Part shown: one piece after another, positions 7,616-39,479 of the stretch
How positions within the stretch are numbered: position 1 is the stretch's first letter
Layout: each line of letters opens with the position of its first letter
From: Gordonibacter urolithinfaciens
Lineage (GTDB): Bacteria > Actinomycetota > Coriobacteriia > Coriobacteriales > Eggerthellaceae
Direction: 5' to 3'
Assembly: GCF_900199375.1 (NCBI RefSeq)
Contig: NZ_LT900217.1
Location: forward strand, 2,170,001 to 2,234,000
Length of the DNA: 64,000 bases
Translations under genes and position numbers: made by a program
Notes under the pieces: model-generated
The model's input: the letters and a program-made list of their open reading frames with translations, nothing else
The model's database searches: none
What the model was told of the DNA's origin: nothing

Positions 7616-8578
7616 CTAATCGACGACGTTCTGCGGGTGGCCGTCCACGAAGGCCCCCACGTTGGCGGCGACGGTTGCCAGCAGGCGCTCGCGGGCCTCA
7701 TGGGTGGCCCAGGCGATGTGGGGCGTGACGACGATGTTCTCGCCCTTCGCCTGGAGCAGGGGGTTGTCGGGGCGCATGGGCTCGACCGATACCACGTCGG
7801 CGCCGAAGCCGGCCAGCTTGCCCGAGCGCAGCGCGTCCACCACGGCCTGCTCGTCCACGAGGGAGCCGCGCGCGGTGTTCAGCAGGTAGGACCCTTCCTT
7901 CATCTTGGCGAGCGCTGCGGCGTCCATCAGGTGCTCGGTCTCGGGCGTGGCCGGCACGTGCAGCGAAACCACGTCGGCCGTGGCCAGCAGCTCGTCCAGA
8001 TCCACCTGCCGCACGCCGTCGCCTTCCAGCTGCGGCTTGGGCGAGCGGTTCTCGAACACCACGGGCATGCCGAAGGCGCGGGCGATGCGGCCCACCGCCT
8101 GCCCGATGCTGCCCATGCCGACGATGCCCATCGTCTTTCCCGCCAGCTCCACGAGCGGCGTGCTCCAGAACGAGAAGTCCTTGGCGCGCGTCCAGCCGCC
8201 GTCCATGACCAGCTGGGAATGCTCGCCCACGTGCAGGCACAGCTCCAGCAAGAGCGCGAACGTCATCTGCGCCACGTCGGGCGTGGAGTAGGCCGGAACG
8301 TTCGACACCACGATGCCGCGTGCGCGCGCCGCATCGAGGTCGACCACGTTGTAGCCGGTGGACGTGAGCGCGATCATCTTGAGGCGCGGCGCCCAGCCGA
8401 GCGCCTCGGCGTCCCAGACCGTCTTGCTCGATACGACGATGCCGGCTTCGGCCACGCGCTGCGCCAGCTGGTCGCGCGGCGTGCGGTCGTACACGGTGAC
8501 GGTGCCGTACGATTCGAGGGCGTCCCAGCTAAGGTCGCCGGGGTTGTTCACGTATCCTTCGAGAACCGCGATGTTCAT
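7616..8578 (-). CDS. D-2-hydroxyacid dehydrogenase (hydroxypyruvate/glycerate type)
   Basis: An NAD-dependent D-isomer-specific 2-hydroxyacid dehydrogenase of 320 residues. The Rossmann motif GIVGMGSIGQAVGR and the C-terminal catalytic His in TPHIAWATHEAR are clear, with the usual Glu (VVSVEPM) and Arg (NTARGSLVDE) between them. The start was chosen at 8578 because AAGGAGCG lies just upstream, although the frame continues for about 110 codons into the structured RNA region. Substrate is not determinable, and glycerate/hydroxypyruvate is the usual default. It is convergent with hisS. Confidence 0.9.
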   Translation of the reverse strand: MNIAVLEGYVNNPGDLSWDALESYGTVTVYDRTPRDQLAQRVAEAGIVVSSKTVWDAEALGWAPRLKMIALTSTGYNVVDLDAARARGIVVSNVPAYSTPDVAQMTFALLLELCLHVGEHSQLVMDGGWTRAKDFSFWSTPLVELAGKTMGIVGMGSIGQAVGRIARAFGMPVVFENRSPKPQLEGDGVRQVDLDELLATADVVSLHVPATPETEHLMDAAALAKMKEGSYLLNTARGSLVDEQAVVDALRSGKLAGFGADVVSVEPMRPDNPLLQAKGENIVVTPHIAWATHEARERLLATVAANVGAFVDGHPQNVVD

Positions 8579-8731
8579 GGGCGCTCCTTCCCGCAGGTGC
8601 ACTGTTCGGCTTGCTCTGCCGGCGATTGTAGCACCGCGTGAACGGTGCGGCCTTCCGGGTGCCGAAGCGATGCGATGCGGTAACGCGGGCGGCTGCCCCT
8701 CGGGGCGGGAGGCAGGGAAGCGGGTGGCCTG

Positions 8732-8867
8732 AAAAGGATCGGCCCGGCGAGAGGGGAGCTCGCCGGGCCACAAGGAGGGGGATGTGCGGCGTTCTTGGAC
8801 GCCGCTACTGCTTTGCAAGGGGTTACAAGCAGTGCAAGTTGAAAGGAGGGGAGCCTTTTCACTTGCT
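8732..8867 (-). ncRNA. Repeated structured sRNA with C-rich loops, copy 1
   Basis: Read on the minus strand, four elements follow a -10: a 5' hairpin (8834-8866) with loop CTCCCCT, a hairpin (8807-8833) with ACCCCTT in the loop, a hairpin (8786-8805), a single-stranded CCCCTCCTTG, and a perfect 11-bp GC stem (8741-8769, loop CTCCCCT) followed by GATCCTTTTC that looks like a terminator. Copies 2 and 3 share the layout. The 8786-8805 stem changes sequence between copies with compensatory pairs, the hallmark of a conserved RNA. The C-rich loops resemble anti-Shine-Dalgarno seeds of base-pairing sRNAs. Ends are estimated to within a few nt. Confidence 0.72.
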
Positions 8868-8873
8868 GGGATC

Positions 8874-8925
8874 AGTATATAAGTTGGCCTTGAAGAACAT
8901 ATGGGCTGCACGTGCGCGTTTTGTC
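8874..8925 (-). promoter_or_regulatory. Promoter of sRNA copy 1 with two conserved upstream boxes
   Basis: On the minus strand the -10 TATACT (8874-8879) lies 7 nt before the first hairpin. CATATG (8898-8903) sits where a -35 would be, and ACAAAACG (8917-8924) lies further up. The three boxes have the same spacing in all copies (24 and 43 nt from the -10). No TTGACA is present, which suggests an activator or alternative sigma factor. Confidence 0.6.
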
Positions 8926-9018
8926 GATTATCGCCCCGTTTGCGTTACGCTCCCGTTACCTGGCGGGAGGCGGAGGGCGGAGCTGGCTGCCATGCCGTAT
9001 GGGGCCGGGGAAGCTCGG

Positions 9019-9154
9019 AAAAGGATCGGCCCGGCGAGAGGGGAGCTCGCCGGGCCACAAGGAGGGGATGATGCGGTGCCTATTGGGCACCGACTCTGCT
9101 TTTAAGGGGTAAAGCAGATGCAAACTGAAAAGGAGGGGAGCCTTTCGTTTGCTG
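9019..9154 (-). ncRNA. Repeated structured sRNA with C-rich loops, copy 2
   Basis: Same architecture as copy 1. Minus-strand hairpins lie at 9120-9152 (loop CTCCCCT), 9096-9117 (loop ACCCCTTA), 9074-9092 (stem CGGTGCC / GGCACCG) and 9028-9056 (terminator-like, loop CTCCCCT, then GATCCTTTTC). The 9074-9092 stem differs from copies 1 and 3 at paired positions, keeping complementarity. It is in tandem with copy 1, about 290 bp apart. Confidence 0.72.
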
Positions 9155-9160
9155 CCGCCT

Positions 9161-9212
9161 AGTATAAAAGTTGGCCTTGAAAAACATATGACGGAGGAGT
9201 GGCCGTTTTGTG
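9161..9212 (-). promoter_or_regulatory. Promoter of sRNA copy 2
   Basis: The minus-strand -10 TATACT is at 9161-9166, CATATG at 9185-9190 and ACAAAACG at 9204-9211. The spacings are identical to copies 1 and 3. The stretch CATATGTTTTTCAAGGCCAA is nearly the same as in copy 1. Confidence 0.6.
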
Positions 9213-9269
9213 AATTAGAGGGCTTGAAAGTAACAATTAGGTAAAGTTGCCGGCTTTTCCGTCCTTCCG

Positions 9270-10436
9270 TCAGGCGCCGCCTCCCGCAGGATCCGCCTCG
9301 CCCCCGTCCGGCCCGCCGACCGGCGCGTCGTCCGCGCCATCGCAGTCGACCTCGCACGCGATGCCCGCCGCCACGGGTACGAAGTCGCCCGCTCCCGGCG
9401 CCACGTCGCCGACGCCGCGCCGCAGGTACGCCCGCAGCGCCCGCAGCGCCGCCAGCTGCTCGGGTGCCAGCGCCCCCGACGCGCGGTCGGCCTTGAGCCC
9501 GGCCGCCAGCATGCCCAGGAAGCGCGCGCTCACCACGGCCACGATGGTGGTGGCCAGCACCAGCTGCACGCCGGCCAGCTGCTCGACCGCCCATGCTGCG
9601 CCCGAGAGCCCGGCGCCCTCCAGGGCTCCGGCCAGCCCGCGCGTGGCCAGCAGTCCCACGGCCATGGGAAAGGTCATGCCCGCGTAGCCGGGGTGGAACG
9701 CGACACCGAAGAACTTAGGCAGCTTCGCAACCACGTAGACCAGCGACACGGCCTCGCAGGCGAACAGCAGTCCCATGACCACGAGGTTGGGGTCGGGGAA
9801 CACGTTCACATACGACACGAGGCACATGCTGCACGGTCCCAGCATGATAGCCTGCGAGTGCATCATGGCCTCGGCCACCTCGCAGCGCTTCATGCGCCAC
9901 AGCATGAACGGCGTCACCGCCACGTAGATGGCGATTCCCCACACCACGATGCCCACCGCCAGCGGTTCGGGCATGAACGGCATGCCCGCCACCGTTGACA
10001 CCATCACCCCGTTCGTGGTGACGTACCAGCTGGGCATGAACGTCTTCCATTCGAACCGCCGCAGGAAAAACCGGGCGAAGAACACCGCCACATGCACGCA
10101 CAGCAGGCCCAGCATGGCGAAGAACACTGCCTGCGCGGCCGCCCATGCGGCCGGGAACAGCTGTGCGTAGAACACGCACAGAACCATGACCAGCATGGGA
10201 ACCGTCGGGTAGAGTGCGGCCAGCATGGGGTTGGCGTACTCGGCCGCCACCACGCTGCGCAGATGGAAGGCGATCTTCAACGCGTACAGCACCACGACCG
10301 CCGTGGCGGCGGCAACGGCGAGCCAGTGCACGATCGGGAATCCGAGCGTGTCGTACACGCCGCTCAGCACCAGCAGGCCGAGCGCGGCCGGCACGACGGG
10401 GAGCGGCAGCTTCGAGACCTTGTCCTTGACGTACAT
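9270..10436 (-). CDS. TDT/SLAC1-TehA family anion or dicarboxylate transporter
   Basis: A membrane protein of 388 residues with about ten hydrophobic helices, followed by a charged, Asp/Gly-rich cytoplasmic tail of ~75 residues. The pattern of paired helices and motifs such as GPCSMCLVSYVN and FHPGYAGMTFPMAVG matches the tellurite-resistance/dicarboxylate transporter (TDT, TehA/SLAC1) family, channels and carriers for anions. The ATG at 10436 has GAAGGGGGAA upstream. It stands alone, with sRNA copy 2 downstream and copy 3 upstream on the same strand. The substrate cannot be inferred. Confidence 0.75.
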   Translation of the reverse strand: MYVKDKVSKLPLPVVPAALGLLVLSGVYDTLGFPIVHWLAVAAATAVVVLYALKIAFHLRSVVAAEYANPMLAALYPTVPMLVMVLCVFYAQLFPAAWAAAQAVFFAMLGLLCVHVAVFFARFFLRRFEWKTFMPSWYVTTNGVMVSTVAGMPFMPEPLAVGIVVWGIAIYVAVTPFMLWRMKRCEVAEAMMHSQAIMLGPCSMCLVSYVNVFPDPNLVVMGLLFACEAVSLVYVVAKLPKFFGVAFHPGYAGMTFPMAVGLLATRGLAGALEGAGLSGAAWAVEQLAGVQLVLATTIVAVVSARFLGMLAAGLKADRASGALAPEQLAALRALRAYLRRGVGDVAPGAGDFVPVAAGIACEVDCDGADDAPVGGPDGGEADPAGGGA

Positions 10437-10543
10437 GCTTCCCCCTTCGTCGGTGCGCCCGCACGGGTGCGCGGCCCCATGATAAAGCCGGGGGTCCCTC
10501 CGATCAATCAGGTAATTCCCGCCGGGGCAAAACGGTCCGTAGG

Positions 10544-10676
10544 AAAGGATCGGCCCGGCGAGAGGGGAGCTCGCCGGGCCACAAGGAGGGGATGATGCGA
10601 TGCTCTTGGGCATCGCTACTGCTTTGTAAGGGGTACAAGCAGTGCAAACTAAAAGGAGGGGAGCCTTTCGCTTGCA
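10544..10676 (-). ncRNA. Repeated structured sRNA with C-rich loops, copy 3
   Basis: Minus-strand hairpins lie at 10644-10675 (loop CTCCCCT), 10618-10643 (loop with ACCCCTT), 10597-10616 (GCGATGC / GCATCGC) and 10552-10580 (terminator-like, followed by GATCCTTTCC). It has the best -10 of the three (TATAAT). It is separated from copies 1 and 2 by the transporter gene, so the family is dispersed rather than a single tandem array. Confidence 0.72.
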
Positions 10677-10682
10677 GGGCCC

Positions 10683-10735
10683 ATTATAGACGCAGGGGTT
10701 GAAAAACCTATGGTGCAGGCGTGTTCGTCTTGTGC
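10683..10735 (-). promoter_or_regulatory. Promoter of sRNA copy 3
   Basis: The minus-strand -10 TATAAT is at 10683-10688, the CATAGG box at 10707-10712 (in place of CATATG) and ACAAGACG at 10726-10733. Offsets from the -10 are 24 and 43 nt, exactly as in copies 1 and 2, although the surrounding bases differ. Confidence 0.6.
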
Positions 10736-10941
10736 AACGGCCGTGCACGGTCGGTGAATTGCAGGCTGGGTCCGCACGGCTGCCGCTCGCGGACGCTCGG
10801 CAACCGCTCGCGTGCAAGGCACCTGGCCGGCCGCCGTGCGGCCGTTTCGGCTCCTTCTGTCGAAGGAACGGGTTTTCCCGACGCCCGCTGCGCGTGCCGC
10901 GACGTTTGGGTATCATAGTGGAATCGAAGAAAGGAGCCTCC

Positions 10942-11898
10942 ATGCCCGATATCGCGCTGCGCTTCCACAAGGACATGCTCGTGCTGTCCGCCCCCCTCGC
11001 CGCCGTGCTCGCCCGCCAGGGTGTCGACGTGGCACGCGACCTGGAGTACCTGAACCTCATCGAGCCGGAGGCCGTGCGCGACGCGCTGCGCTTGGAGTCC
11101 ATCGCCGGCGCCCAGTGCCTCGTTGCCGGCACGGAGGGCATCGCGCCCGCCCGCCTGGCCCACCACGGCATGGAAGACCGCTTGGGCGACCTCGCCCGCG
11201 CGGCGCTCGGCATTGTGGGCTCGCTCAAGCCCCAGCACGTGCTGGCGGAGGTGGGGCCGTGCGGGCTGCCGCTCGACGGCTCAAGCGCGGCATCGCTCAA
11301 CGAGAACCGCAGCCAGTACGCCCGCGCCGCACGCGCGTTCGAGGGCGCTGCGCTCGACGCGTTCCTGTTGGGAGGGTTCGCGAACCCCGTCGACCTCAAG
11401 TGCGCGCTCATGGGCTTGCGGCAGGCGAGCGACCTGCCCGTGTTCGCGGCCATCGACGTGGACGGCGACGGCCTCGTTGCCGACGGCCGCATGGCGGTCG
11501 AGGAGGCCGTGGCCCTGATGGGCGAGTTCGGCGCCTCCGTGGCGGGCATCACCACCGGCGCGCCCGCCGATCGGGCCGCGGAGCTCGTCGAGCGTGCCTG
11601 CGCCTCGACCGACCTGCCGGTGCTCGTGCAGCTGCGCGTGGCCGACCATGCGCCGCGGCAGGGGGCCTCCACGCCCGAGAACCCCTACTACTGCCCCGAC
11701 GTCATGGTCGACGCCGCCGCGCGCCTGCGGGCGGCGGGCGCCCAGTTCCTGCGCGCCGTGGGCGATGCCACGCCGGCCTACACCGGCGCGCTGGCCGCGG
11801 CCACGGACGGCTTCGACGTCGTGGCGCCCCGCGGCGCCGATCCAGCCGAGGACGAGGACGATCTGGCGACTCTGCTGTCTGCCGTGCGGGGGAGGTAG
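10942..11898 (+). CDS. Homocysteine S-methyltransferase-like TIM-barrel protein lacking zinc ligands
   Basis: A protein of 318 residues whose N-terminus (VARDLEYLNLIEPEAVRDAL, GAQCLVAGTEG) and overall barrel pattern resemble the MetH/BhmT homocysteine-methyltransferase domain. The three Zn-binding cysteines of that family are not there. The region equivalent to GxNCxxGP reads GITTGAP, and the position of the terminal GGCCGT motif reads RAVGDAT. It therefore probably does not methylate homocysteine. AAAGGAGCCTCC precedes the ATG. The small gene at 11902 starts 3 nt after its stop, so the two are likely co-expressed. The role is unknown, and the assignment to the fold is moderate. Confidence 0.65.
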   Translation: MPDIALRFHKDMLVLSAPLAAVLARQGVDVARDLEYLNLIEPEAVRDALRLESIAGAQCLVAGTEGIAPARLAHHGMEDRLGDLARAALGIVGSLKPQHVLAEVGPCGLPLDGSSAASLNENRSQYARAARAFEGAALDAFLLGGFANPVDLKCALMGLRQASDLPVFAAIDVDGDGLVADGRMAVEEAVALMGEFGASVAGITTGAPADRAAELVERACASTDLPVLVQLRVADHAPRQGASTPENPYYCPDVMVDAAARLRAAGAQFLRAVGDATPAYTGALAAATDGFDVVAPRGADPAEDEDDLATLLSAVRGR

Positions 11899-11901
11899 CG
11901 C

Positions 11902-12171
11902 ATGGCCTCCGGCTCCAACATCGAGCGCAGCCCGCACTACGGCGCCCTGCAGGACCTGGTGGACGGCCTGTTCGCCAGCGCTTCGGCCGACGACGCCGTG
12001 CGCCGCCTCGACGCGGTGATAGCCGCCGAGGCCGCCGACCTCCCCGACGACCTCATGGAGGTGGTCAGGCTGCTCCCCCCGGGGTCCTACACCCGCCAGC
12101 GCCTCTGCGACCAGATCAACTCGTCTATAGGCGGACACGCCTGGGGCCAGGTCTACGGCACGGTGGAGTAG
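11902..12171 (+). CDS. Small conserved-looking protein, function unknown
   Basis: A soluble, acidic protein of 89 residues with no motif I recognise. GGGGGAGG lies 5 nt before its ATG, inside the stop region of the preceding homocysteine-methyltransferase-like gene, so translation is probably coupled. The C-terminus (SYTRQRLCDQINSSIGGHAWGQVYGT) is the most constrained-looking part and contains one Cys. It may be a partner or regulator of the upstream protein. Confidence 0.75.
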   Translation: MASGSNIERSPHYGALQDLVDGLFASASADDAVRRLDAVIAAEAADLPDDLMEVVRLLPPGSYTRQRLCDQINSSIGGHAWGQVYGTVE

Positions 12172-24583: not shown

Positions 24584-25027
24584 GCGTGTCCGAAACCGGG
24601 TCCTCTGCGCGTTCCGCACGTCCATAATCGTCCCGGCGCCGTCTCGGGAAGAGGCGAGGGAGGGGAAGCGAGCGGTCGTTTATCGCCTGCGAACGGTATT
24701 CAACAGGGGGGTCAACGGTAAATTGAGACTCACTATGAGGGTGGAGAGGCGAGCTTTGCCGCCCTGATCTCCATAATTGCGTGTTTTCGAGCAGCAATTA
24801 TGGAAACGGTATTTGGAAGGAGTGGTCGGGGCACCTCCGGCATTCGATATGTGATCGCATTTGTGGTAAAATCTCATACGGATTTTGCCGTGCTTTTTCG
24901 CGGGGCATAATCTACCGCGTCAAGAATGCACATGGCATGTCAGAAAACGTATAGGCGAATCTAACGCACGCGGTGCCCCTTGAGAAGCGGGGCCCCTGAA
25001 GAGGTACCTGAGGATTCGGTGATACGT
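24584..25027. other. Intergenic region between pilus operon and giant adhesin
   Basis: No gene is seen. The region is AT-richer than its surroundings and contains the inverted repeat CCATAATTGC (24771-24780) / GCAATTATGG (24794-24803), a possible operator. CATAAT at 24906-24911 could be a -10 for the adhesin gene, about 115 nt before its start. Confidence 0.4.
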
Positions 25028-28000
25028 ATGAGCATGCTGGAAAAACTAAGCGACGCGAAGAACACGTTCGAGGGCAAGGCGCTGGCCGTCTTCATGTCCC
25101 TGGTGATGGTGCTCTCCTTCATCAACTTCTCTTCCTTCGCCGATGCGGCCGAGAACGGCACGTCGCCCGACGCCCCCGAGGCGCAGGCGGACGATCCGTC
25201 GAGCGAGCCCGCCGAAACCCCGGCTCCCGAATCCGCACCTTCAGCCGAGCCCGAGGCCGCCGCCCCGGCGGAGATCCCGGAGGCTTCCGAGCCGCCCGCG
25301 CAGAGCGAGGCGACCGTCCCGCCCGCGTCCGAGCCCGAACCCGACCTCCCCACCGCCGAGCCCGGCGTGGCCGTGGTGGGCGTAGAGCTCGACCATGCGT
25401 ACCTCGTTGTTGCCGACCAGGAGATAGCACTGCCGCTGACTTCTTTCAAAACATCGCTCAACAAAGATCTCGTGTTCGAGGTCAAGCCTGACGGCGGCTA
25501 CCAGATCGACAAAGTTGTGGCGAAGAGCAAAGCCGACGGGACCGAGAGGCCGCTGGAGCCTCAAGCAGATGGATCTTACCGGCTCGCTGCCTCGGAAGTG
25601 AGCAGCAACCTCGTTATAAAGCCGGTGGTGGCGCTTGCTCCCGAGCTGGATGGCGCGGTCGACGACGCTGACGGGCCGTCTGCGAAACCTGCCGAGGGCG
25701 AATTGGCCGACGGCAGCGATTCGGGTCTCGAAGCACCGAAGTCCGAAGCGGACGGCAATGCCGCAACACCGTTTGGTCTTGACAACACTCTCGGAGTTGA
25801 AGCCATCGGCGTTCCTACCGAGCTTACCGTAGATCCAGCGACGCTCAAGCTCAATGTCGGCGCTTCAAGCAAGCTCAAGGCCATTGTCGAGCCGGTCGGA
25901 TCCAATGGCAAAGTTGTCTGGACTTCGAGCGATCCAAGCGTGGCGAAGGTTACCGATGACGGCACGGTGAAGGCCTTGTCGGGCGGCACAACCACCATCA
26001 CGGCGCGTTCGGTTGCCAACCCGGCTCTTGCAAACGTATCCGTGGTTACCGTAACAGAGTCGCGTACTGTGAAGTTCAAGACCAACACGGGCGAGGGCGA
26101 GATAAAGAGCCTCGCCACAACGTCAGAGGTCGGTTCAACCATAATCATGCCCGAGCTCCCCGATGGGGCTGTTAATAATTGGCCTGCGAACAGGGTTTTC
26201 GTGGGATGGAGCGTTGATCAGCGTGCGGTTACCTCGGGCGGCAAGGACCACTACACTAATCCTGTCTTCGCTCCCGGATCGTCCTATGTCGTGCCCTCCG
26301 GAAAAGGCAATATCGAACTTTACGCGATCTACTCGGCGCAAAATATCGGTGCGGATTTTTACTTGCGTATCGACGGACAATTCCCGGCAGAGCCGCAGGG
26401 ACACAGCAATTCTGGGTACGTCAAGATTGGCTGGGTTGAAAATGCTATCAAGGTCGGCAAGTTCGTCACCGACACCACTGGCGCGATGGTGAGCGCCAAC
26501 CTTGCTGCAACGCCGAATGACGCGATGATTCAGAAGGCGTGTGCGGGCAATCCGAAACTGAGCTTCGATCCGGAGACGCAGACCGTCATCTGGTATGTTA
26601 TCAAAAACGAGGAGACGTGGCATGTCGACGGTGCTATCCGCGACAAAGCGTCAGTAGTGCTGGCCTACAGTCCCAATATTCCTGCTGGAGAGACTTTGAG
26701 CGGCACCTTCCCCAATACAAAGGCCTATGCCGCAGGCGCTTCGGTAAAGGTTGAAAGCGGAAAAGCCGACTGGCGCGCCGGCTACACGTTCAAGGAGTGG
26801 AATACAGAACCCGATGGATCCGGTACCTCCTACCAGGGTGGTTACTCCATCACCCTGAACGAATCGAAGACGCTCTATGCCATTTGGTCGCCGAAGGACG
26901 GTACGAACTACCGTATCCAAGACTATCTGCAAAACGCCGACGGATCGTGGCCCGACGAGCCATCGCATGCCACATCGGCCAGTGGGAAAACGGGCGCTAC
27001 GGTGTACGCCGATACGACGAAATCGTACACCGGCTACACTTTTGATGCCGGTAACGACAAGAACGTGCTGACCGGCAAGGTGGCGGGGGACGGCTCTCTC
27101 GTGTTGAAGAGGTACTATGCTATCAACACCTGCAAGGTCACGTATCTTCCGGGCGATTACGGAGCGTTTGATGCTGTTACGTACGAGGCCAAGTTCGGCA
27201 CCGCAACGCCGGAGTTCCAAGGTGAGAAGGACGAGAACGACAAGCCGTTGGGCAAGCAAGGCTACAACTTCGCCGGGTGGGCGCCGAGCGTGACCGAAAC
27301 GGTGGAGGCTGAAACGACCGAGTACGTGGCCCAGTGGACGGAGATGCCGGTTATCAACGTCCTGGTCAAAAGCGAGGATAAGGAAGTGGTGTACAACGGT
27401 GCCGAACATGTGGTCGACGTTGTTTCCGAGAACCTCGTTTACGAAGGCTTGCCTGCGGGCTACAAGATCCACAACCTGAGCGCATCCGGCCGCGGCACCG
27501 AGGCGGGCGAGTACGATATCGCCATCGACGGCACCCCTGTCGTTCTTAACGAAAAAGACGAGGATGTTACCGGTCGGTTCTTCATCGCGCGCAACAAGAA
27601 CAAGCTGACGGTCAAGAAGGCCCCGCTCACCATTACGGCCCCCACGAAAGAGAAGGTGTACGACGGCACCCCGCTGACGTTCGACCTGAACGACATTATC
27701 ACAGGCGAGGGCCTGGTCAAAGGTCTGGTCGATGGCCAGCAACTGGTCGGCATCGACCTGTTCGGCTCCATCACCGATGCCGGTACGGTGGAATCGTCCG
27801 TTCTCCAGGCGGTCATTACGAGCGGGTCTGAGAACGTGACGCGCAATTACAACATCACTTGCGAGCCGGGCACGCTGACCGTGAAAGAGTTCGAGGGCGA
27901 GATCGTTGCGACTACCGAAGGCGGCGAGTATCCCTACGACGGGGATTCCCATGGAGCGACGGTGAGCGTTAGCAGTCTGCCGGAAGGCTATACGCTGGTA

Positions 28001-31000
28001 ACAGCTTCCTCGAACGCCAGCGCGACCGATGTGACCGAAGAGCCCGTGGTGGCGAAGGTCGACACGCTGCGCATCATCAACAAGGCCGGCGTCGATGTGA
28101 CGGACAAGCTTAACATCGTCAAGAAGGAGGAGGGCACGATTGTCGTCAAGCCTGCCAAGCTGTACGTGAAGACGCGTACTGCCTCCAAGCCCTACGACGG
28201 TACCCCGCTCACGGCCGCCGGTGAGATGACTGGTTTGGTGAACAACGAGACCGCCGCTTTCACCACCACTGGCACGGCCACCGAGGTCAATGCGCCCGAA
28301 GGCACCCCTAACACGTACACGATAGACTGGAACGGCAGCGCCAAGAAGTCCAACTATACGGTCGAGGAGGATCTTGGCACGCTGACGGTGAAAGAGTTTG
28401 CCGGCGAGATCGTTGCGAAGGCCGAAGGCGGCAGGTACCCCTACGACGGGAACCCCCATGGGGCGACGGTGAGCGTAAGTGCTCTGCCAACAGGCTACAC
28501 GCTGGCAGAGGCCTCGTCGAGCGCCAGCGCGACCGATGTGACCGAAGAGCCCGTGGTGGCGAAGGTCGACACGCTGCGCATCATCAACAAGGCCAGCGTC
28601 GATGTGACCGACAGGCTGAATATAAAGAAGATCGACGGACAGATCGAGGTTACGCCGGCGCCGCTGGCTGTGAGGATCGTGGGCAATTTCGCCCTTGAAG
28701 CCTATACCGGCGAAACGTTCACGGTCGACGGTTTCATTATCGATACCCCCATCGGGGACAAGGCGACGATCGCTCTCAAGGAGGGTGTGGCCGCCCATGC
28801 CGAAGGTGCGGATGCGGGCACGTACCCCATGGGCCTGACGGCCGACAGCTTCAACGTCTCGTCTCGCAACTACGAGGTGACGTTGGAGGTTGTGGACGGC
28901 TTCTTGCGGATATCCCCGCTTGACACGCTCGAGGTGGCGGCCGAGGACGTCAAGGAACTGTACGACGGCAACCTGTACGGCATCGAGGCCGTTTCATCCG
29001 CCAAGGACGGACGTACGTCCGTAAAGTACTACAACGAGGCCACCGACGCATTCGACCTTGATAAGTCGCCGGTGTTCAAGGATGCCGGCACATATACCGT
29101 GCGGTTCCAGGCAACCAACCCGAACTACAGCAACGTTGCCGAAGGCTCCGCAACCGTCACCATCGAGAAGCGCACGGTGACGCTGGAGAGCGCGAGCGCC
29201 TCTCGGCAGTACAACGGCGAAGCGCTTGTAGCCCCCACGGTGAAGGTGGGCGGTGACGGGTTCGTTGCCGGCGAGGAGCCTGCTTACGAGGTGACCGGTT
29301 CCGCGACCAACGTCGCCGACACGCGTGACGAAAACAACGAGTTCGCTTATACGTTCCCCGAGGGCGTGAACGCGGACAACTACGAAGTGACCACGCTGTT
29401 CGGCACCCTGGCCATCACGCCGGCGCCTTTGCTGGTAACGGTGACGGGCAAGCATGCATCGGTTCCCTACGATGGGGGCCTGCATGAGGTCGACGGCTTC
29501 GGCGACGATGCCGCAGGCAAGGCGACGATCGCTCTCAAGGAGGGTGCGGCCGCCCATGCCGAGGGCACGGATGCGGGCGAGTACTTCATGGGCCTCACGC
29601 CCGACAGCTTCGACGTCTCCTCGCCGAACTACACGGTGACGCTGAACGTGGTCGACGGCTACCTGCGCATCGACCCGGCGGGGGAGATGTCCGTTTCGGC
29701 CAGCGACGTGGCTAAGACCTATGACAGCAACCGCTACGGCGTGAAGGCCGAGGCTTCGGTGGAGGGCGCGACGATCCGCTACTGCGATCCGGCTACGGGC
29801 GAGTACACCTTGAAAGAATCCCCGACGTTCCTCGATTGGACGGACGGCCCGCAGACGGTGGAGTTCCAAGCGACCCATCCGAACTACCAGACGGCGTATG
29901 GAACCGCAACCGTTACCATCGACAAGCGCACGGTGGTTCTGCGCTCCGGCGATGCCGAGCGGGAATACGACGGAACGGCGCTCGTCAAGCACGAGGCAAG
30001 CGTTGTCGACGGGGCGTTCGTCCGCGGCCAAGAGCCCGAAATCGCCTATTACGGCTCCGCGACGAACGTCGCCGACACGCACGACGGCAACAACGGGTTC
30101 TCCTACGAGTTCCCTGAAGGCGTGAACGCGGACAACTACCAAGTAACCACGCTGTTCGGCACCCTTACCATCACGCCTGCTCCCTTGCTGGTAACGGTGA
30201 CGGGCGCGTTCGACAACGTGACGTTTGATGGGAAGCCCCATACGGTGGAGGGCTTCACGGTGGGCGACGAGGCCGCCGGGGGGAAGGCGACCATCGCGTT
30301 GAAGGACGGCGAGCGGGCGTATGCCGAGGGCGTGGCGGCAGGCCGGTATCCCATGAACCTGACCGCGGAGCAGTTCACGGTGCAGTCCGATAACTACCGC
30401 GTGACGTTGAACGTGATCGACGGCTACCTGAACATCGACAAGGCGGGCACGTTGAGCGTCGATGCCCAGCCGGTCGTCAAAACCTACGATGGGTCGGGCT
30501 ACGGTGTGGAGGCCAAGGCCTCGGTCGACGGGGCCCATATCAGGTACTACAACGCGGAAACGGATGCGTACGACCTGACGGAATCGCCGAAATACGCGGA
30601 CGCGGGAACCTATACCGTGAAATTCCAAGCTGCCCTTGATAACTACAACACCGCCGAGGGCGCGGCGACCGTGACCATCAACCCGCGTGCCGTCACGCTG
30701 ACCAGCGCCGATGCGGCCAAACCGTACGACGGTACGCCGCTGGTCGCCGAGGACGTCATCGTGTCCGGCGGCTTCGTGACCGGCGAGGGCGCTGCGTATT
30801 CCGACTTCGCGTCGCTGACCGATGCGGGCACGACGTCCAATACCTTCGACTACCGCCTGAACGAGGGAACGAAGGCATCGAACTACAAGGTGAGGAAAAT
30901 CCCCGGCACGCTCGAGGTGGAGAAGGCCCCGCTGGCCGTCCGCATCCAGGGCGCTGTGAAATCGGTCGCCTACAACGGCGCGCTCCAAGCGGTCGACGGC

Positions 31001-33853
31001 TACAAGGTGCTCGACGACGTTGCCGGCAAGGCCTCGATCGAGCTTGCCGGAAACGCCGCCGCCCATGCCGAAGGCGTGGACGTGGGCGAGTACCCCATGG
31101 GCCTCTCCCCCGAAAGCTTCTCGGTGACGTCGCGCAACTACGAGGTGACGCTGGAAGTGGCCGACGGGAAGCTTGCCATAAGCCCCTCCGGCGCCTTGAC
31201 GGTTTCGGCCGAGCCCGTGAGTGCCATGTACGACGGGAAGCGCCAGGGCGTCGAGCCGACCGCATCCCTTCCCGGCGCGAAGATCAGCTACTGGTCCGCC
31301 GAGAGCGGCGACTACACGCTCGATGCGTGCCCGACGTACCTCGACGTGACCGACGGGCCCCAGGCGGTGAAATTCAAGGCGACGCTTCCGAACCATCAGG
31401 ACGCCTACGGCGAGACCACCGTGGAGGTAACGGTGCGCCCTGTCTCGGTGACGAGCGCCGATGGCGAGAAAGTCTACGATGGCAACCCGCTGACGAACGC
31501 GACCGTAACCGTGGGCGGCTTTGGCTTCGTGAACGGCGAGGAGCCCGCGTTCGCCGTAACCGGCTCGCAGACCGATGCGGGATCTGCGCCCAACGCCTTC
31601 GCCTATGCTTTCCCCGGGGGCGTGCGCGAGGGCAACTACGCGATAACCAAGAACGAGGGAACCTTGACGGTGCGCAAGGCCCCCTTGACGGTAAACGTGG
31701 TGGGCAACCACGACACGGTGACGTTCGACGGTAGGTCGCACCAGGTCGACGGTTTTGCCGACGATGCTGCCGGCAGGGCCATCATCAAGCTCAAAGACGG
31801 CGTGCTCGCCCACGCCGAGGGCACCGACGCGGGAACCTACCCGATGGGGCTCACGGCCGACAGCTTCGACGTTGCGTCGAGGAACTACGACGTGACGCTG
31901 ACGGTGACGGACGGCTACCTTGCCATCAACCCGGCAGGGGTCATGACGGTGGCCGCCGACAACGTTTCGAAGAGGTACGACGGCAAGCGGGTGGGCGTCC
32001 AGGCGACGGCCTCGGTCGAAGGCGCCGAGGTCAGGTACTTCAACGCGGACACGGGGGCGTTCGACCTCGAAGAGTCGCCGACGTTCCTCGACGCGACGGA
32101 GGGTGCCGCCGTTGTGCGCTTCCAGGCCACGCACCCGAACTACGCGACCGTCGAGGGCTCGGCAACCGTGACGATTGACAAGCGGTCGGTGGTGCTGACG
32201 TCGGACGATGCGAGCAAGACGTACGACGGCGAAGCGCTTTCTGCAGAGCGCGTGACAGTGTCCGGCGAGGGCTTCGCCGACGGCGAGGGAGCCGTCTATA
32301 CCGATTTCGCGAGCATCGTCGATGCGGGCAGCGTACCGAACGCGTTCGCATACCGACTTGAAGAGGGAACCCATGCCGGCAACTACGATGTTACCGTCGT
32401 CCCGGGCGTGTTGAGCGTTGCGAAGGCCCCGCTGGCGATCACGGTGACGGGCAACCAGGCTGCAGCTGTCTACGACGGCGCGAACCACCTCGCCGAAGGC
32501 TACGTCGTCGACGGCGCCGACGGCAAGGCCGAGGTCGTGCTGCGGGACGGCGTGCTCGCCCGTGCCGAGGGAACCGACGCCGGTACCTACCCGATGGGGC
32601 TCGCGGCCGACAGCTTCGAGGTGCGGTCGAATAACTACGACGTGACGCTGACGGTGGTGGACGGCTCGCTGTCGGTGGCGCCTGCCAAGCTGCTCATCTC
32701 GGCCAACGACGCGAGCAAGAGGTACGGGCAAGCCGATCCTGCGCTGACGGCGTCGGTTGCGGGCCTGGTTGGGGGCGACGCCTTCTCCGGCTCGTATAAC
32801 GTGACGCGCGTCGAGGGCGAGTCGGTCGGCACGTATGCGATCACCGTCGAGGACGCGGTCTCGGGCGATCCGAACTATGTGGTCGAAGTGGCTCCGGGCT
32901 CCTTCACCATCGTTCCCGCCGACGCCGTTTCCCTCGTGGTAGGCGGCGGCACGAAGGTCTACGACGGCACGCCGCTGGTGCCGACGGGCTTCACGCCGTC
33001 CGGCTTGGCCGACGGCGATTACGTGGAGGTGGTGTACAGCGGCTCGCAGACCGATGCCGGCTCGAGCGCCTCGGGCCTCGCGAGCTACGTTATCCGCAAC
33101 GCCGCGGGCGAGGACGTGACGGCCAACTACGAGAACGTCAACGTGGTGCCCGGTGATTTGACCGTGACGCCTGCGGCTGCCATGATCGTCGTGGCCGATG
33201 CGGCCAAGGTGGCCGGCGCGGCCGATCCGACGTTCACCGGCACGGTGACAGGGCTCGTCGACGAGGGTGACCTCGGGAGGGTTGCCTTTGTCCGCTCGAA
33301 CGGCGACGAGGCTCCCGGAACCTACGTCGACGCGCTCACGGCGTCCTTCACCGACAATCCGAATTACACGGTGACGGTCGTCCCCGGCACGTTCACCATC
33401 ACGGCCGCCCCGGTGGTTCCTCCGGCGCCGGTCACGCCGGCCACGCCGACGCCCGGCACGCCGGTGCCCCCGGTCACGCCGGCCACGCCGACGCCCGGCA
33501 CGCCGGTGCCCCCGGTTACGCCGGGCGTAACGCCCGAGGGCACGCCTCCGGCTGCAGCGGCGGTAATCGAGGTCCTCGAGGACGCTGTCACTCCGTTGGC
33601 TGGCCCGCAGGAGGAGACGATCGGCGACAACGAGAACCCGCTCGCAGGCTTCAACCGGGTGAACTGCTGGGTGCACTACTATCTCATCCTGGGCATCATC
33701 GTCACGGTGATCTACGGAGCGGGCGTGCTGGTGCGGCGCATCAACTTCACGCGCAAGCTCAAGGGCTTCGAGAACGACGTGCTCGGCATCGAGGACGAGC
33801 AGGCGGCTGCCCCGTTCGCGGCGCCGTTCGCGACGGATGGCAGGGAGGCCTAG
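25028..33853 (+). CDS. Giant MBG-domain surface protein (adhesin-like)
   Basis: About 2941 residues. It has an N-terminal signal (VFMSLVMVLSFINFSSFADA), a Pro/Glu-rich linker, a bacterial Ig-like (Big2) domain near residues 270-345, and InlB/Listeria-Bacteroides repeats to about residue 770. About 23 MBG-type repeats (xYDGxP..) follow to about 2790, then a Pro/Thr stretch and one C-terminal membrane helix with a short basic then acidic tail. There is no LPXTG motif, so the helix anchors it. The MBG part is organised in an A-B-C order repeated about five times. Start: the ATG at 25028, though GTG 25019 with AGGA close by is possible. It probably acts as a surface stalk or adhesin. Confidence 0.85.
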   Translation: MSMLEKLSDAKNTFEGKALAVFMSLVMVLSFINFSSFADAAENGTSPDAPEAQADDPSSEPAETPAPESAPSAEPEAAAPAEIPEASEPPAQSEATVPPASEPEPDLPTAEPGVAVVGVELDHAYLVVADQEIALPLTSFKTSLNKDLVFEVKPDGGYQIDKVVAKSKADGTERPLEPQADGSYRLAASEVSSNLVIKPVVALAPELDGAVDDADGPSAKPAEGELADGSDSGLEAPKSEADGNAATPFGLDNTLGVEAIGVPTELTVDPATLKLNVGASSKLKAIVEPVGSNGKVVWTSSDPSVAKVTDDGTVKALSGGTTTITARSVANPALANVSVVTVTESRTVKFKTNTGEGEIKSLATTSEVGSTIIMPELPDGAVNNWPANRVFVGWSVDQRAVTSGGKDHYTNPVFAPGSSYVVPSGKGNIELYAIYSAQNIGADFYLRIDGQFPAEPQGHSNSGYVKIGWVENAIKVGKFVTDTTGAMVSANLAATPNDAMIQKACAGNPKLSFDPETQTVIWYVIKNEETWHVDGAIRDKASVVLAYSPNIPAGETLSGTFPNTKAYAAGASVKVESGKADWRAGYTFKEWNTEPDGSGTSYQGGYSITLNESKTLYAIWSPKDGTNYRIQDYLQNADGSWPDEPSHATSASGKTGATVYADTTKSYTGYTFDAGNDKNVLTGKVAGDGSLVLKRYYAINTCKVTYLPGDYGAFDAVTYEAKFGTATPEFQGEKDENDKPLGKQGYNFAGWAPSVTETVEAETTEYVAQWTEMPVINVLVKSEDKEVVYNGAEHVVDVVSENLVYEGLPAGYKIHNLSASGRGTEAGEYDIAIDGTPVVLNEKDEDVTGRFFIARNKNKLTVKKAPLTITAPTKEKVYDGTPLTFDLNDIITGEGLVKGLVDGQQLVGIDLFGSITDAGTVESSVLQAVITSGSENVTRNYNITCEPGTLTVKEFEGEIVATTEGGEYPYDGDSHGATVSVSSLPEGYTLVTASSNASATDVTEEPVVAKVDTLRIINKAGVDVTDKLNIVKKEEGTIVVKPAKLYVKTRTASKPYDGTPLTAAGEMTGLVNNETAAFTTTGTATEVNAPEGTPNTYTIDWNGSAKKSNYTVEEDLGTLTVKEFAGEIVAKAEGGRYPYDGNPHGATVSVSALPTGYTLAEASSSASATDVTEEPVVAKVDTLRIINKASVDVTDRLNIKKIDGQIEVTPAPLAVRIVGNFALEAYTGETFTVDGFIIDTPIGDKATIALKEGVAAHAEGADAGTYPMGLTADSFNVSSRNYEVTLEVVDGFLRISPLDTLEVAAEDVKELYDGNLYGIEAVSSAKDGRTSVKYYNEATDAFDLDKSPVFKDAGTYTVRFQATNPNYSNVAEGSATVTIEKRTVTLESASASRQYNGEALVAPTVKVGGDGFVAGEEPAYEVTGSATNVADTRDENNEFAYTFPEGVNADNYEVTTLFGTLAITPAPLLVTVTGKHASVPYDGGLHEVDGFGDDAAGKATIALKEGAAAHAEGTDAGEYFMGLTPDSFDVSSPNYTVTLNVVDGYLRIDPAGEMSVSASDVAKTYDSNRYGVKAEASVEGATIRYCDPATGEYTLKESPTFLDWTDGPQTVEFQATHPNYQTAYGTATVTIDKRTVVLRSGDAEREYDGTALVKHEASVVDGAFVRGQEPEIAYYGSATNVADTHDGNNGFSYEFPEGVNADNYQVTTLFGTLTITPAPLLVTVTGAFDNVTFDGKPHTVEGFTVGDEAAGGKATIALKDGERAYAEGVAAGRYPMNLTAEQFTVQSDNYRVTLNVIDGYLNIDKAGTLSVDAQPVVKTYDGSGYGVEAKASVDGAHIRYYNAETDAYDLTESPKYADAGTYTVKFQAALDNYNTAEGAATVTINPRAVTLTSADAAKPYDGTPLVAEDVIVSGGFVTGEGAAYSDFASLTDAGTTSNTFDYRLNEGTKASNYKVRKIPGTLEVEKAPLAVRIQGAVKSVAYNGALQAVDGYKVLDDVAGKASIELAGNAAAHAEGVDVGEYPMGLSPESFSVTSRNYEVTLEVADGKLAISPSGALTVSAEPVSAMYDGKRQGVEPTASLPGAKISYWSAESGDYTLDACPTYLDVTDGPQAVKFKATLPNHQDAYGETTVEVTVRPVSVTSADGEKVYDGNPLTNATVTVGGFGFVNGEEPAFAVTGSQTDAGSAPNAFAYAFPGGVREGNYAITKNEGTLTVRKAPLTVNVVGNHDTVTFDGRSHQVDGFADDAAGRAIIKLKDGVLAHAEGTDAGTYPMGLTADSFDVASRNYDVTLTVTDGYLAINPAGVMTVAADNVSKRYDGKRVGVQATASVEGAEVRYFNADTGAFDLEESPTFLDATEGAAVVRFQATHPNYATVEGSATVTIDKRSVVLTSDDASKTYDGEALSAERVTVSGEGFADGEGAVYTDFASIVDAGSVPNAFAYRLEEGTHAGNYDVTVVPGVLSVAKAPLAITVTGNQAAAVYDGANHLAEGYVVDGADGKAEVVLRDGVLARAEGTDAGTYPMGLAADSFEVRSNNYDVTLTVVDGSLSVAPAKLLISANDASKRYGQADPALTASVAGLVGGDAFSGSYNVTRVEGESVGTYAITVEDAVSGDPNYVVEVAPGSFTIVPADAVSLVVGGGTKVYDGTPLVPTGFTPSGLADGDYVEVVYSGSQTDAGSSASGLASYVIRNAAGEDVTANYENVNVVPGDLTVTPAAAMIVVADAAKVAGAADPTFTGTVTGLVDEGDLGRVAFVRSNGDEAPGTYVDALTASFTDNPNYTVTVVPGTFTITAAPVVPPAPVTPATPTPGTPVPPVTPATPTPGTPVPPVTPGVTPEGTPPAAAAVIEVLEDAVTPLAGPQEETIGDNENPLAGFNRVNCWVHYYLILGIIVTVIYGAGVLVRRINFTRKLKGFENDVLGIEDEQAAAPFAAPFATDGREA
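28015..28594 (+). repeat. Pair of 73-bp identical direct repeats inside the adhesin gene
   Basis: 28015-28087 and 28522-28594 are identical over 73 bp (CGCCAGCGCGACCGATGTGA... to AACAAGGCC). They lie 507 bp apart, a multiple of three, so recombination would remove or add exactly 169 codons in frame. Confidence 0.8.
33428..33511 (+). repeat. Two 42-bp tandem repeats encoding the Pro/Thr linker
   Basis: Two perfect copies of a 42-bp unit (33428-33469 and 33470-33511), with a partial third after. The unit encodes a 14-residue Pro/Thr/Gly-rich block just before the C-terminal membrane helix. It could vary in copy number by slippage in frame. Confidence 0.8.
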
Positions 33854-34884: not shown

Positions 34885-34940
34885 GCTTTACCAAGATTTG
34901 ACCGGCCCGAGACAGAGGCTTGATGCTCTTTCTTCATCAT
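34885..34940 (+). promoter_or_regulatory. Pho-box-like motif upstream of pstS
   Basis: GCTTTACCAAGATTTGACC (34885-34903) matches the sequence upstream of phoB at 16 of 19 positions. A CATCAT (34935-34940) at a matching distance could be the -10. Repeated TTxACC half-sites 11 nt apart fit a PhoB-type direct-repeat site. Confidence 0.5.
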
Positions 34941-35027: not shown

Positions 35028-35945
35028 ATGAAGAAGCGTTTGGTGATGATGGCGATGGGAGCCCTGCTCGCGCTGAGCGCATTCGGCCTCATGGGCTGCT
35101 CCGGCGGCGGCAACGCCGGTTCCGGAGACGGCGGCGAGGGCGATGGCGCAGCGGGCACGGTCCCGTCCGGCGAGGTCTCCGTGTACTCGCGCGAGGACGG
35201 CTCCGGCACGCGCGGGGCGTTCGTCGAACTCATGGGCATCGAGGAGAAGGACGCCAGCGGCGAGAAGGTCGACATGACCACCACGTCTGCCGCCATCACG
35301 AACTCCACCTCGGTCATGATGACGTCGGTGGCGGGCGACGAGAACGGCATCGGCTATATCTCGCTCGGCTCGCTGAACGACACGGTCAAGGCCCTCAAGA
35401 TCGACGGCGCCGAAGCCACGGCCGCCAACGTGAAGAGCGGCGACTACCAGGTGGCCCGCCCGTTCAACATCGTGACGAAGGACGGGCTGTCCGATGTGGC
35501 GCAGGACTTCATCGATTTCATCATGAGCTCCGACGGCCAGAAGATCGTCGAGGAGGAGGGCTACATCTCCGTTGCCGATAGCGCCGCCGCGTACACCGGC
35601 TCCGGCCAGTCCGGCAAGATCGTCATCGCGGGCTCCTCTTCGGTGACCCCTGTCATGGAGAAGCTGGCCGAGGCCTACAAGGCCATCAACTCCGGCGTGA
35701 CCATCGAGGTCAACCAGTCAGACTCCACCACCGGCGTGAACATGGCCACGGAAGGCACCTGCGACATCGGCATGGCCTCCCGCGAGCTCAAGGACTCCGA
35801 GACCGGCGTCACCCCCACGGTCATCGCCCAGGACGGCATCGCCGTCATCGTGAACAATGCCTCCAACGTTGACGGGCTTTCCTCCGAGCAGGTGAAGGGC
35901 ATCTACACCGGCGAGATCGCGAACTGGGAAGACGTTCTGGCATAA
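35028..35945 (+). CDS. pstS: Phosphate-binding lipoprotein PstS, apparently circularly permuted
   Basis: A protein of 305 residues with a lipoprotein signal (LMGC, Cys24) and AAAGGAAGAGC before the ATG. The two halves of the phosphate-binding fold occur in reversed order. The SREDGSGTRGAF motif that normally lies in the second half is at residues 54-65, and the usual first-half motif AGSSSVTPVMEKLAE appears only near residue 202, followed by EGTCDIGMASREL and IYTGEIANWEDV at the C-terminus. This is a circular permutation rather than a frameshift or fusion of two genes. It heads pstSCAB. Confidence 0.9.
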   Translation: MKKRLVMMAMGALLALSAFGLMGCSGGGNAGSGDGGEGDGAAGTVPSGEVSVYSREDGSGTRGAFVELMGIEEKDASGEKVDMTTTSAAITNSTSVMMTSVAGDENGIGYISLGSLNDTVKALKIDGAEATAANVKSGDYQVARPFNIVTKDGLSDVAQDFIDFIMSSDGQKIVEEEGYISVADSAAAYTGSGQSGKIVIAGSSSVTPVMEKLAEAYKAINSGVTIEVNQSDSTTGVNMATEGTCDIGMASRELKDSETGVTPTVIAQDGIAVIVNNASNVDGLSSEQVKGIYTGEIANWEDVLA

Positions 35946-38682: not shown

Positions 38683-38739
38683 GCTTTACGCAAATTTGAC
38701 CTCTCGGAGGCTGCGGCTGCGCGGCGCCTGGCTTACAAT
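38683..38739 (+). promoter_or_regulatory. Pho-box-like motif and -10 of phoBR
   Basis: GCTTTACGCAAATTTGACC (38683-38701) closely matches the pstS-upstream motif. TACAAT (38734-38739) is a probable -10. This suggests phoBR autoregulation from its own promoter after pstB. Confidence 0.5.
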
Positions 38740-38789: not shown

Positions 38790-39479
38790 ATGATCTACTA
38801 CGTTGAAGACGATACCAATATCCGCGACCTTACGGTGTACGCGCTCAAGCAGGCCGGTTTCGAGGCGGCGGGCTTTGCCGCGGCGGGGGAGTTCTTCGTC
38901 GCCTGCAAACGGCGCCTGCCGGAGCTCGTGCTGCTGGACATCATGCTGCCCGAGGTGGACGGCCTGGAGATCCTGCACATGCTGCGGGAGGACCCGGCCA
39001 CGAAGCACCTGCCCGTCATGATGCTCACGGCCAAGGGCACGGAGTTCGACACGGTGAGCGGCCTCGATGCCGGCGCCGACGACTACCTGGCCAAGCCGTT
39101 CGGCATGATGGAGCTGGTGAGCCGCGTGAACGCGCTCATGCGTCGCGCCGCCGCGCCGGCCGTGGCGGCCGACGACGAGTTCTCGTGCGGCCCCATTGCG
39201 CTCACGGTGTCGTCGCACGACGTCTCCGTGGACGGCGAGAACGTTGCGCTCACGCTCAAGGAGTTCGACCTTCTGCGCACGCTCATGCAGAACGAGGGGC
39301 ATGTGCTGTCGCGTCGCCAGCTTTTGGAGGACGTGTGGGGCATGACCTACGTGGGCGAGACGCGCACGGTCGACGTGCACATCCAGACGCTTCGGCAGAA
39401 GCTCGCGGCGGCCGTCGAGGGCGCAGACGCCTACATCCAGACGGTGCGTGGCGTGGGCTACTGCGTCAAGCAGCCATGA
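38790..39479 (+). CDS. phoB: Response regulator, OmpR/PhoB family
   Basis: A regulator of 229 residues. The receiver domain has Asp53-type phosphorylation in VLLDIMLPEVDG, an MMLTAKG Thr/Lys pair, and a C-terminal winged helix (LKEFDLLRTLMQNEGHVLSRRQLLEDVWG). GGAG lies 8 nt before the ATG. Position right after pstSCAB and before a sensor kinase makes a phosphate-sensing role likely. Confidence 0.92.
   Translation: MIYYVEDDTNIRDLTVYALKQAGFEAAGFAAAGEFFVACKRRLPELVLLDIMLPEVDGLEILHMLREDPATKHLPVMMLTAKGTEFDTVSGLDAGADDYLAKPFGMMELVSRVNALMRRAAAPAVAADDEFSCGPIALTVSSHDVSVDGENVALTLKEFDLLRTLMQNEGHVLSRRQLLEDVWGMTYVGETRTVDVHIQTLRQKLAAAVEGADAYIQTVRGVGYCVKQP

Follow-up and report, generated by a model that had tools for sequence, protein, structure and literature searches.

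We analyzed a 64,000-nucleotide (nt) stretch of the Gordonibacter urolithinfaciens genome (contig NZ_LT900217.1, positions 2,170,001 to 2,234,000), hereafter the window, which contains three similar intergenic segments that appear to be genes of a structured small RNA (sRNA). An initial annotation, made from the letters of this DNA, had described three minus-strand copies of about 135 nt with four hairpins each, and this description was borne out by covariance-model matches, by fold z-scores and by RNAalifold. All three matches lie on the minus strand: copy 1 at 8728–8872 (z −8.0; four hairpins, the last being a putative terminator), copy 2 at 9015–9160 (z −6.3) and copy 3 at 10539–10681 (z −6.3). 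As annotated features, the three copies span 8732–8872, 9019–9160 and 10543–10681. The plus-strand folds were weaker relative to shuffled sequences, with z values of −3.6, −3.8 and −3.1 for copies 1, 2 and 3. These are the only copies found in the Gordonibacter genome, as one search gave three strong matches among 15 with expectation values (E) up to 10, and a second model (R2, built from 108 family copies) also gave three. RNAalifold yielded four hairpins from the three window copies and the same four from an unfitted MAFFT alignment of 65 homologues. Hairpin 3 was said to differ between the copies at pairs 4, 5 and 7 while remaining complementary, and the same was seen in the RNAalifold structure of the three copies. 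No long open reading frame was found on either strand, the longest closed ATG frames being 38 codons on the RNA strand and 43 codons on the other; since the copy lengths of 127–154 nt are also spread over all three phases, there is no sign of a peptide.

Four C-rich displays per copy had likewise been proposed, and C-rich runs were indeed found: hairpins 1, 2 and 4 carry one in the loop, and a further one lies in the linker that joins hairpin 3 to hairpin 4. Their unpaired probability in the window copies is mostly high, the linker of copy 2 being the exception. The anti-Shine-Dalgarno linker reads UCCCCCUCCUU in copy 1 (8772–8782, minus strand; unpaired probability 0.69–1.00) and UCCCCUCCUU in copies 2 and 3; it is partly paired within the stretch folded in copy 2 (9059–9068, minus strand) and has an unpaired probability of 0.85–0.99 in copy 3 (10583–10592, minus strand). 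Of the 108 full-length family copies, 106 retain CCCCUCCU in the linker and 91 carry it in loop 1, with the surrounding helices varying. This string is complementary to AGGAGGGG and contains the core of the 16S anti-Shine-Dalgarno tail. C-rich single-stranded repeats on a stable scaffold, often in several copies per genome, would also suit a decoy that sequesters a C-binding protein on its loops (Rho, a KH-domain or cold-shock protein, or ribosomal S1) with no pairing to messenger RNA (mRNA). However, the linker is conserved as one exact string with an anti-Shine-Dalgarno core; base pairing accounts for this more readily than C-richness in general, and we consider the decoy quite improbable.

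Selection on RNA structure, which the initial annotation had proposed from three copies, is supported far beyond them. When the 108 copies were aligned with the covariance model, 95.3% of 3929 cells were paired, compared with 79.5% after shuffling; all 38 of the 38 pairs showed a change on both sides, and 539 cells were changed on both sides versus 118.7 after shuffling. A tree-based count on this alignment gave 165 double-change events in 35 of the 38 pairs, versus 3–7 in the control, in which the partners were slid by 1–3 columns. Because a model-fitted alignment leans to the structure, the test was repeated on the unfitted MAFFT alignment, which holds the 65 copies ranked highest by the first covariance model. 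Here, 39 double-change events were counted in 16 of the 38 pairs versus 0–3 with slid partners, while 59 changes break a pair; the covariation in a larger alignment, whose absence would have spoken against the proposal, is therefore strong. When all 138 copies were aligned by sequence only, gaps were too numerous, and RNAalifold recovered 4 pairs.

A promoter could be recognized upstream of each copy, outside the segments delimited by the initial annotation, which was silent on promoters. The copy 1 promoter (8873–8931, minus strand; 3 mismatches, E 2.0e-13) has a −10 box TATACT at 8874–8879 and 11-bp repeats upstream, the first of which is degenerate (TCGAC). That of copy 2 (9159–9218, minus strand; 0 mismatches, E 1.3e-15) has TATACT at 9161–9166, the repeats TTCAC/CCAC/TCATA/TTCAA and, upstream of these four, a further TTTAC-N6-GTTAC element. 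The copy 3 promoter (10681–10740, minus strand; 2 mismatches, E 7.9e-12) has TATAAT at 10683–10688, four core 11-bp repeats and two extra repeats upstream (TTCACCGACCG and TGCACGGCCGT), which reach 10758. Across the family the −10 box is TATACT or TATAAT in 104 of 108 copies (TACAAT twice, TATTAT and TATAGT in the others), and it lies 0–6 nt, mostly 1–2 nt, before the modelled RNA start. A CA dinucleotide recurs at intervals of exactly 11 bp, at −46 (90 copies), −35 (95), −24 (101) and −13 (90) relative to the −10 box; 75 copies have all four and 98 have at least three. The only other positions with CA in more than 25 copies are −44 (92 copies; the second CA of CACA) and −7 (33 copies). The array is weaker in 31 copies from distant genomes, with all four positions in 7 and at least three in 14. 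The promoters aligned over 60 columns without a gap, in a form written as TTCACAAAACG / nnCACGnnnnn / nTCATATGTTT / TTCAAGG, for 83 of the 104 distinct promoters; the 21 left out mostly have a weaker box, so this uniformity is overstated. Repeats of 11 bp where a −35 box would otherwise stand are a typical mark of promoters under OmpR/PhoB-family response regulators, and the direct repeats of the RNA promoters occupy that place. By promoter and fold, the minus strand would be the transcribed one.

To look at how exclusive the promoter is to the RNA, a promoter model was scanned against 10 genomes with 150 candidates scored per genome. It returned 21 strong sites, every one of them lying immediately before an RNA copy (R2 finds 23 copies there). 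Since most of the 21 promoters were in the model, recovering them is no test. The remaining nine matches had E of 0.014–0.43 and covered only part of the model, and no other gene with the full array was found below E 0.014 in the 10 genomes. Weak partial matches near infA/rpmJ, genes that were named by eye, appear in three genomes to be a palindromic stretch; a CACAAAATGCGCACA stretch shared by the three loci there (L262, L264 and L265) resembles the first repeats of the RNA promoter.

The genes around the copies bear on whether the RNA is a gene of its own. In the window, a D-2-hydroxyacid dehydrogenase gene (7616–8578, minus strand) flanks copy 1 on its downstream side, a SLAC1/TehA-type transporter gene (9270–10436, minus strand; PF03595 on the homologue L025, no NCBIfam match) lies between copies 3 and 2, and a gene for a homocysteine S-methyltransferase-domain (SMT) protein (10942–11898, plus strand; PF02574 on the homologue L070) is the divergent neighbor. 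The SMT gene is the usual neighbor in the family: among 73 neighborhood stretches of differing length it was present near the RNA in 52, with a galU-type nucleotidyltransferase gene in 36, and it is the next recognized upstream gene, divergently oriented, for 73 of the 108 copies. We noted also a small conserved protein of about 90 amino acids encoded after the SMT gene, both here (11902–12171) and in other stretches; its homologue at L035:146–454 had no Pfam match and the window protein had no NCBIfam match.

Copies 3 and 1 of the window are upstream of minus-strand genes, and the next recognized gene downstream is a same-strand dehydrogenase for 29 of the 108 copies and SLAC1 for 11, as in the window. 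This arrangement could suggest a cis-acting leader or attenuator of the downstream gene, namely of the SLAC1 transporter after copy 3 and of the dehydrogenase after copy 1. Against this, the next recognized downstream gene is convergent for 33 of the 108 copies (galU in 32), a count in which 28 copies had no recognized gene within their stretch, and 18 of the convergent genes are within 250 bp, where the RNA cannot be a leader. The commonest upstream neighbor is divergent, one RNA is common to different downstream genes, and copies 2 and 1 each have a full promoter. The leader is hence disfavoured by the convergent loci, and we regard it as very improbable. The usual divergent SMT-like neighbor, together with the 18 copies that end at most 250 bp from a convergent gene, argues instead for a free-standing gene, which is intergenic, is preceded by a predicted promoter and ends in a predicted terminator that is weak in the window by its U tract. 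As judged from sequence, the structure, the promoter and the own-gene status of this RNA family are well supported.

Three similar copies within 2 kb could also arise from a repeat acting at the DNA level or from a mobile element with no RNA function. Synteny is shared across genera, however, and the number of copies per genome stays at 1–4. A known mobile element, a match to which the initial annotation would have counted against its proposal if the opposite strand were transcribed, was looked for, and nothing convincing came up: no plasmid matched at E up to 0.01, one pattern had no exact match in viral contigs, and a Tetrasphaera phage gave a single 48-nt match (E 4e-3) over the last hairpin. 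In our view the covariation and the promoter conservation exclude a repeat or mobile element of this kind, whose probability we put close to nil. In a tree of 65 copies, by leaf order, each of the three window copies is adjacent to copies from other Gordonibacter genomes and not to another window copy, copy 2 being also next to one copy of another genus, and the groups of the tree tend to agree in their outer promoter type (a GTTAC element or additional CA repeats). Leaf order and shared outer promoter types suggest that the copies are old, maintained paralogues.

The family extends over the order. Searched at the DNA level, 68 of the 138 genomes in the same taxonomic family contained relatives, and the covariance model of the three window copies yielded the 108 full-length copies, in 73 sequences, that were aligned and from which R2 was built. 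The covariance-model search of the Eggerthellaceae that the initial annotation had suggested was then made with R2, which matched 103 of the 138 genomes (76 of the 92 good ones) with 1–4 copies per genome; named carriers include Eggerthella sinensis, Paraeggerthella hongkongensis, Enteroscipio rubneri, Rubneribacter badeniensis and Gordonibacter species. Over the order, 123 of 395 genomes matched, 20 of them outside the Eggerthellaceae in six other families, with weaker E of 2e-10 to 6e-4. In a class-wide sample 64 of 296 genomes matched, all 64 within the order, the share of the 296 from outside the order not being stated. Loci were fetched for 17 of the 20 genomes outside the taxonomic family, and 16 of these keep CCCUCCUUG. 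The sole match in one of the families (L180, genome G237, family f4) lacks both CCCUCCUUG and a TATAAT box and was discarded, leaving 19 genomes in five other families, with the loci of 16 inspected; L171 is probably a doubtful member. A constant GACTCGG around hairpin 2 was observed, along with the linker CCCUCCUUG, in L158, L160, L163, L164, L166, L167, L168, L170, L173 and L175 (families f5, f6 and f8), and these copies perhaps form a distinct subfamily.

The statement that no named family has this architecture held at Rfam thresholds. No Rfam 15 family reached its gathering cut-off in the window, and a cmscan of positions 8600–10900 at E up to 10 returned four chance-level matches only (E 3.5–7). 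Among the 20 divergent loci no Rfam family matched the RNA; only two transfer RNAs and a glycine riboswitch were found beside it, in two loci. We found no account of such an RNA in Coriobacteria in the open-access literature, as judged by titles and the starts of abstracts, with subscription journals mostly uncovered. These data indicate that this is a new and real, order-wide family of structured sRNAs of the Coriobacteriales, of a known functional kind. For Eggerthella lenta DSM 2243, RNA-seq with and without digoxin has reportedly yielded 21 transcriptomes (Haiser et al., cited in PMC4620388).

We propose that the RNA is probably a trans-acting, multicopy regulatory sRNA, about 135 nt long and transcribed on its own, that occludes Shine-Dalgarno sites. 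The sequences show an order-wide family under selection on structure, a promoter of its own in which 11-bp repeats stand for the −35 box, a terminator-like last hairpin, and CCCCUCC elements placed in loops and in a single-stranded linker that hardly varies. A response regulator of the OmpR/PhoB family would bind the repeats and activate the copies in response to a signal of stress or nutrients. Through its redundant anti-Shine-Dalgarno elements, the RNA would then mask AGGAGG(GG) ribosome-binding sites on a group of mRNAs, whereby translation would be blocked and the mRNAs probably destabilized as well. Having several copies would raise the dose, and the outer promoter elements, which differ between them, may provide separate inputs.

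Several observations weigh against this proposal. The transcript, the regulator and the targets were none of them observed. The terminator-like end claimed initially stands in part, as the last hairpin is strong but the window copies have a short U tract (GAUCCUUUU, GAUCCUUUU and GAUCCUUUC); at least UUU occurs within the last 16 nt in 98 of 108 family copies. One genome (G096) has three RNA copies, of which the promoter model recovers a site at one only. The promoters of the genome's own pstS and phoP genes carry TTTAC/TTGAC half-sites and the RNA promoters TTCAC/nCAC. Complementarity is all that points to targets, and the sites in question show no distinctive recurrence. The pattern AAGGAGGGG before ATG was scanned in 5 Gordonibacter and 7 other genomes and 90 genes were read; in the four other Gordonibacter genomes the reading covered 24 loci among the matches. 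It occurs at 12 places in the own genome besides the RNA genes. A DcuC-family transporter recurred in 8 of the 12 scanned genomes and 5 genera; a multihaem cytochrome c did so in 4 genera, an amino acid permease in 3 genera and a molybdopterin enzyme in 4 Gordonibacter genomes. In five genomes, however, 10 of 41 genes with AAGGAGGGG recurred between genera (3 groups) versus 18 of 71 (8 groups) with AAGGAGGCG, chosen by reasoning as a control of similar ribosome-site strength, for which part of the 99 matches in those genomes was read. Before ATG, AAGGAGGGG is also rarer than AAGGAGGCG (110 versus 196 matches) in 8 of 9 genomes, G063 being the exception with 8 versus 7. Since the control recurs as often, no targets are claimed. 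Of the initial suggestion that the C-rich loops pair with ribosome-binding sites, it stands that complementary sites exist; their recurrence does not exceed that of the control.

The same four gene types are the recurrent candidates of a wider reading, namely that the RNA is the order-wide controller of a regulon in gut Coriobacteriales, in which a dedicated two-component system would work chiefly via one sRNA family that mimics the 16S anti-Shine-Dalgarno tail, strong AAGGAGGGG sites would tune transporters and enzymes of anaerobic electron transport, and the outer promoters of the paralogues would serve separate signals. We consider this extension of the Shine-Dalgarno-occluding sRNA rather unlikely.

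The identity of the regulator was considered with respect to PhoP, as a pst-phoPR cluster lies in the window at 34.9–40.9 kb, about 24 kb from the RNA copies. The same RNA would then be specifically an sRNA of the Pho regulon, activated by the PhoP of the window (38790–39479). The TTCAC-type 11-bp direct repeats, four core and two outer in copy 3, resemble the PHO boxes of Streptomyces, which are built of 11-nt direct repeat units, with four core and two outer units at pitH2 (PMC7866108). The half-sites differ, being TTCAC/nCAC/TCATA/TTCAA here. Likely Pho boxes of the form TTTAC-N6-TTGACC were noted at 34887–34903, before pstS, and at 38685–38701, before phoP, and a pattern scan found a TTTAC-type pair before pstS in 7 genomes, with none in most other pstS loci. 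The half-site of PhoP in this genome thus differs from that of the RNA promoters at a base that is nearly always C in the latter, and it was not found in them. A TTCAC-N6-TTGACC element occurs in one locus (L107), but 1.3 kb upstream of the match, and TTCAC pairs are not enriched in the window (33 versus 29 expected). PhoP, attractive at first, is therefore not favoured as the regulator, and a specific Pho-regulon sRNA seems doubtful to us. With respect to the cluster itself, the pstS-like gene at 35028–35945 matches the PstS model over two segments whose order is swapped (profile positions 158–294 before 28–157), as if circularly permuted, and this order was seen in 11 of the 21 genomes with a match, our own included. 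Elsewhere in the window, an open reading frame of 2957 amino acids (24980–33853) shows many similar repeats by eye and perhaps encodes a giant surface protein.

Among known sRNAs, Rfam holds models for LhrC and for 6C RNA; the latter has C-rich hairpin loops and occurs in Actinobacteria, the same phylum, with an architecture that we take to differ from that of the Coriobacteriales RNA. No gathering-level 6C match was found in the window or in the 20 related loci, nor any at E up to 10 in 8600–10900. LhrC1-5 of Listeria monocytogenes is a multicopy sRNA whose expression requires the response regulator LisR; it pairs with lapB mRNA, and its UCCC motif is counted with those presumed to keep translation from initiating by acting at the Shine-Dalgarno site (PMC4132741). 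Its redundant CU-rich motifs are placed in a stem-loop, a single-stranded stretch and the terminator structure (PMC4132741), and the RNA described here, also multicopy, has such motifs in loops, in a single strand and in the terminator loop. It differs from LhrC in having four hairpins, CCCCUCCU instead of UCCC and a high G+C content, and in belonging to another phylum. No LhrC match was among the cmscan matches of 8600–10900 at E up to 10, and membership hence fails; the likeness is one of design. IsrR of staphylococci has a comparable layout, being a trans-acting sRNA with three stem-loops, a terminator and three C-rich regions, regulated by Fur, and its interaction models include the Shine-Dalgarno sequence and AUG of targets (PMC9410917). 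Fur regulation and another sequence set IsrR apart from the Gordonibacter RNA, whose promoter has 11-bp repeats.

In the human gut, drugs as well as compounds from plants are transformed by Eggerthella, Gordonibacter and related bacteria. For the study of post-transcriptional control in the Coriobacteriales, a conserved regulator would be a way in, offering a model ready for use, a promoter signature and clear mutants to test. Theirs would be the second phylum with a multicopy, response-regulator-linked, anti-Shine-Dalgarno design, presumably arisen independently of the LhrC sRNAs of Listeria.

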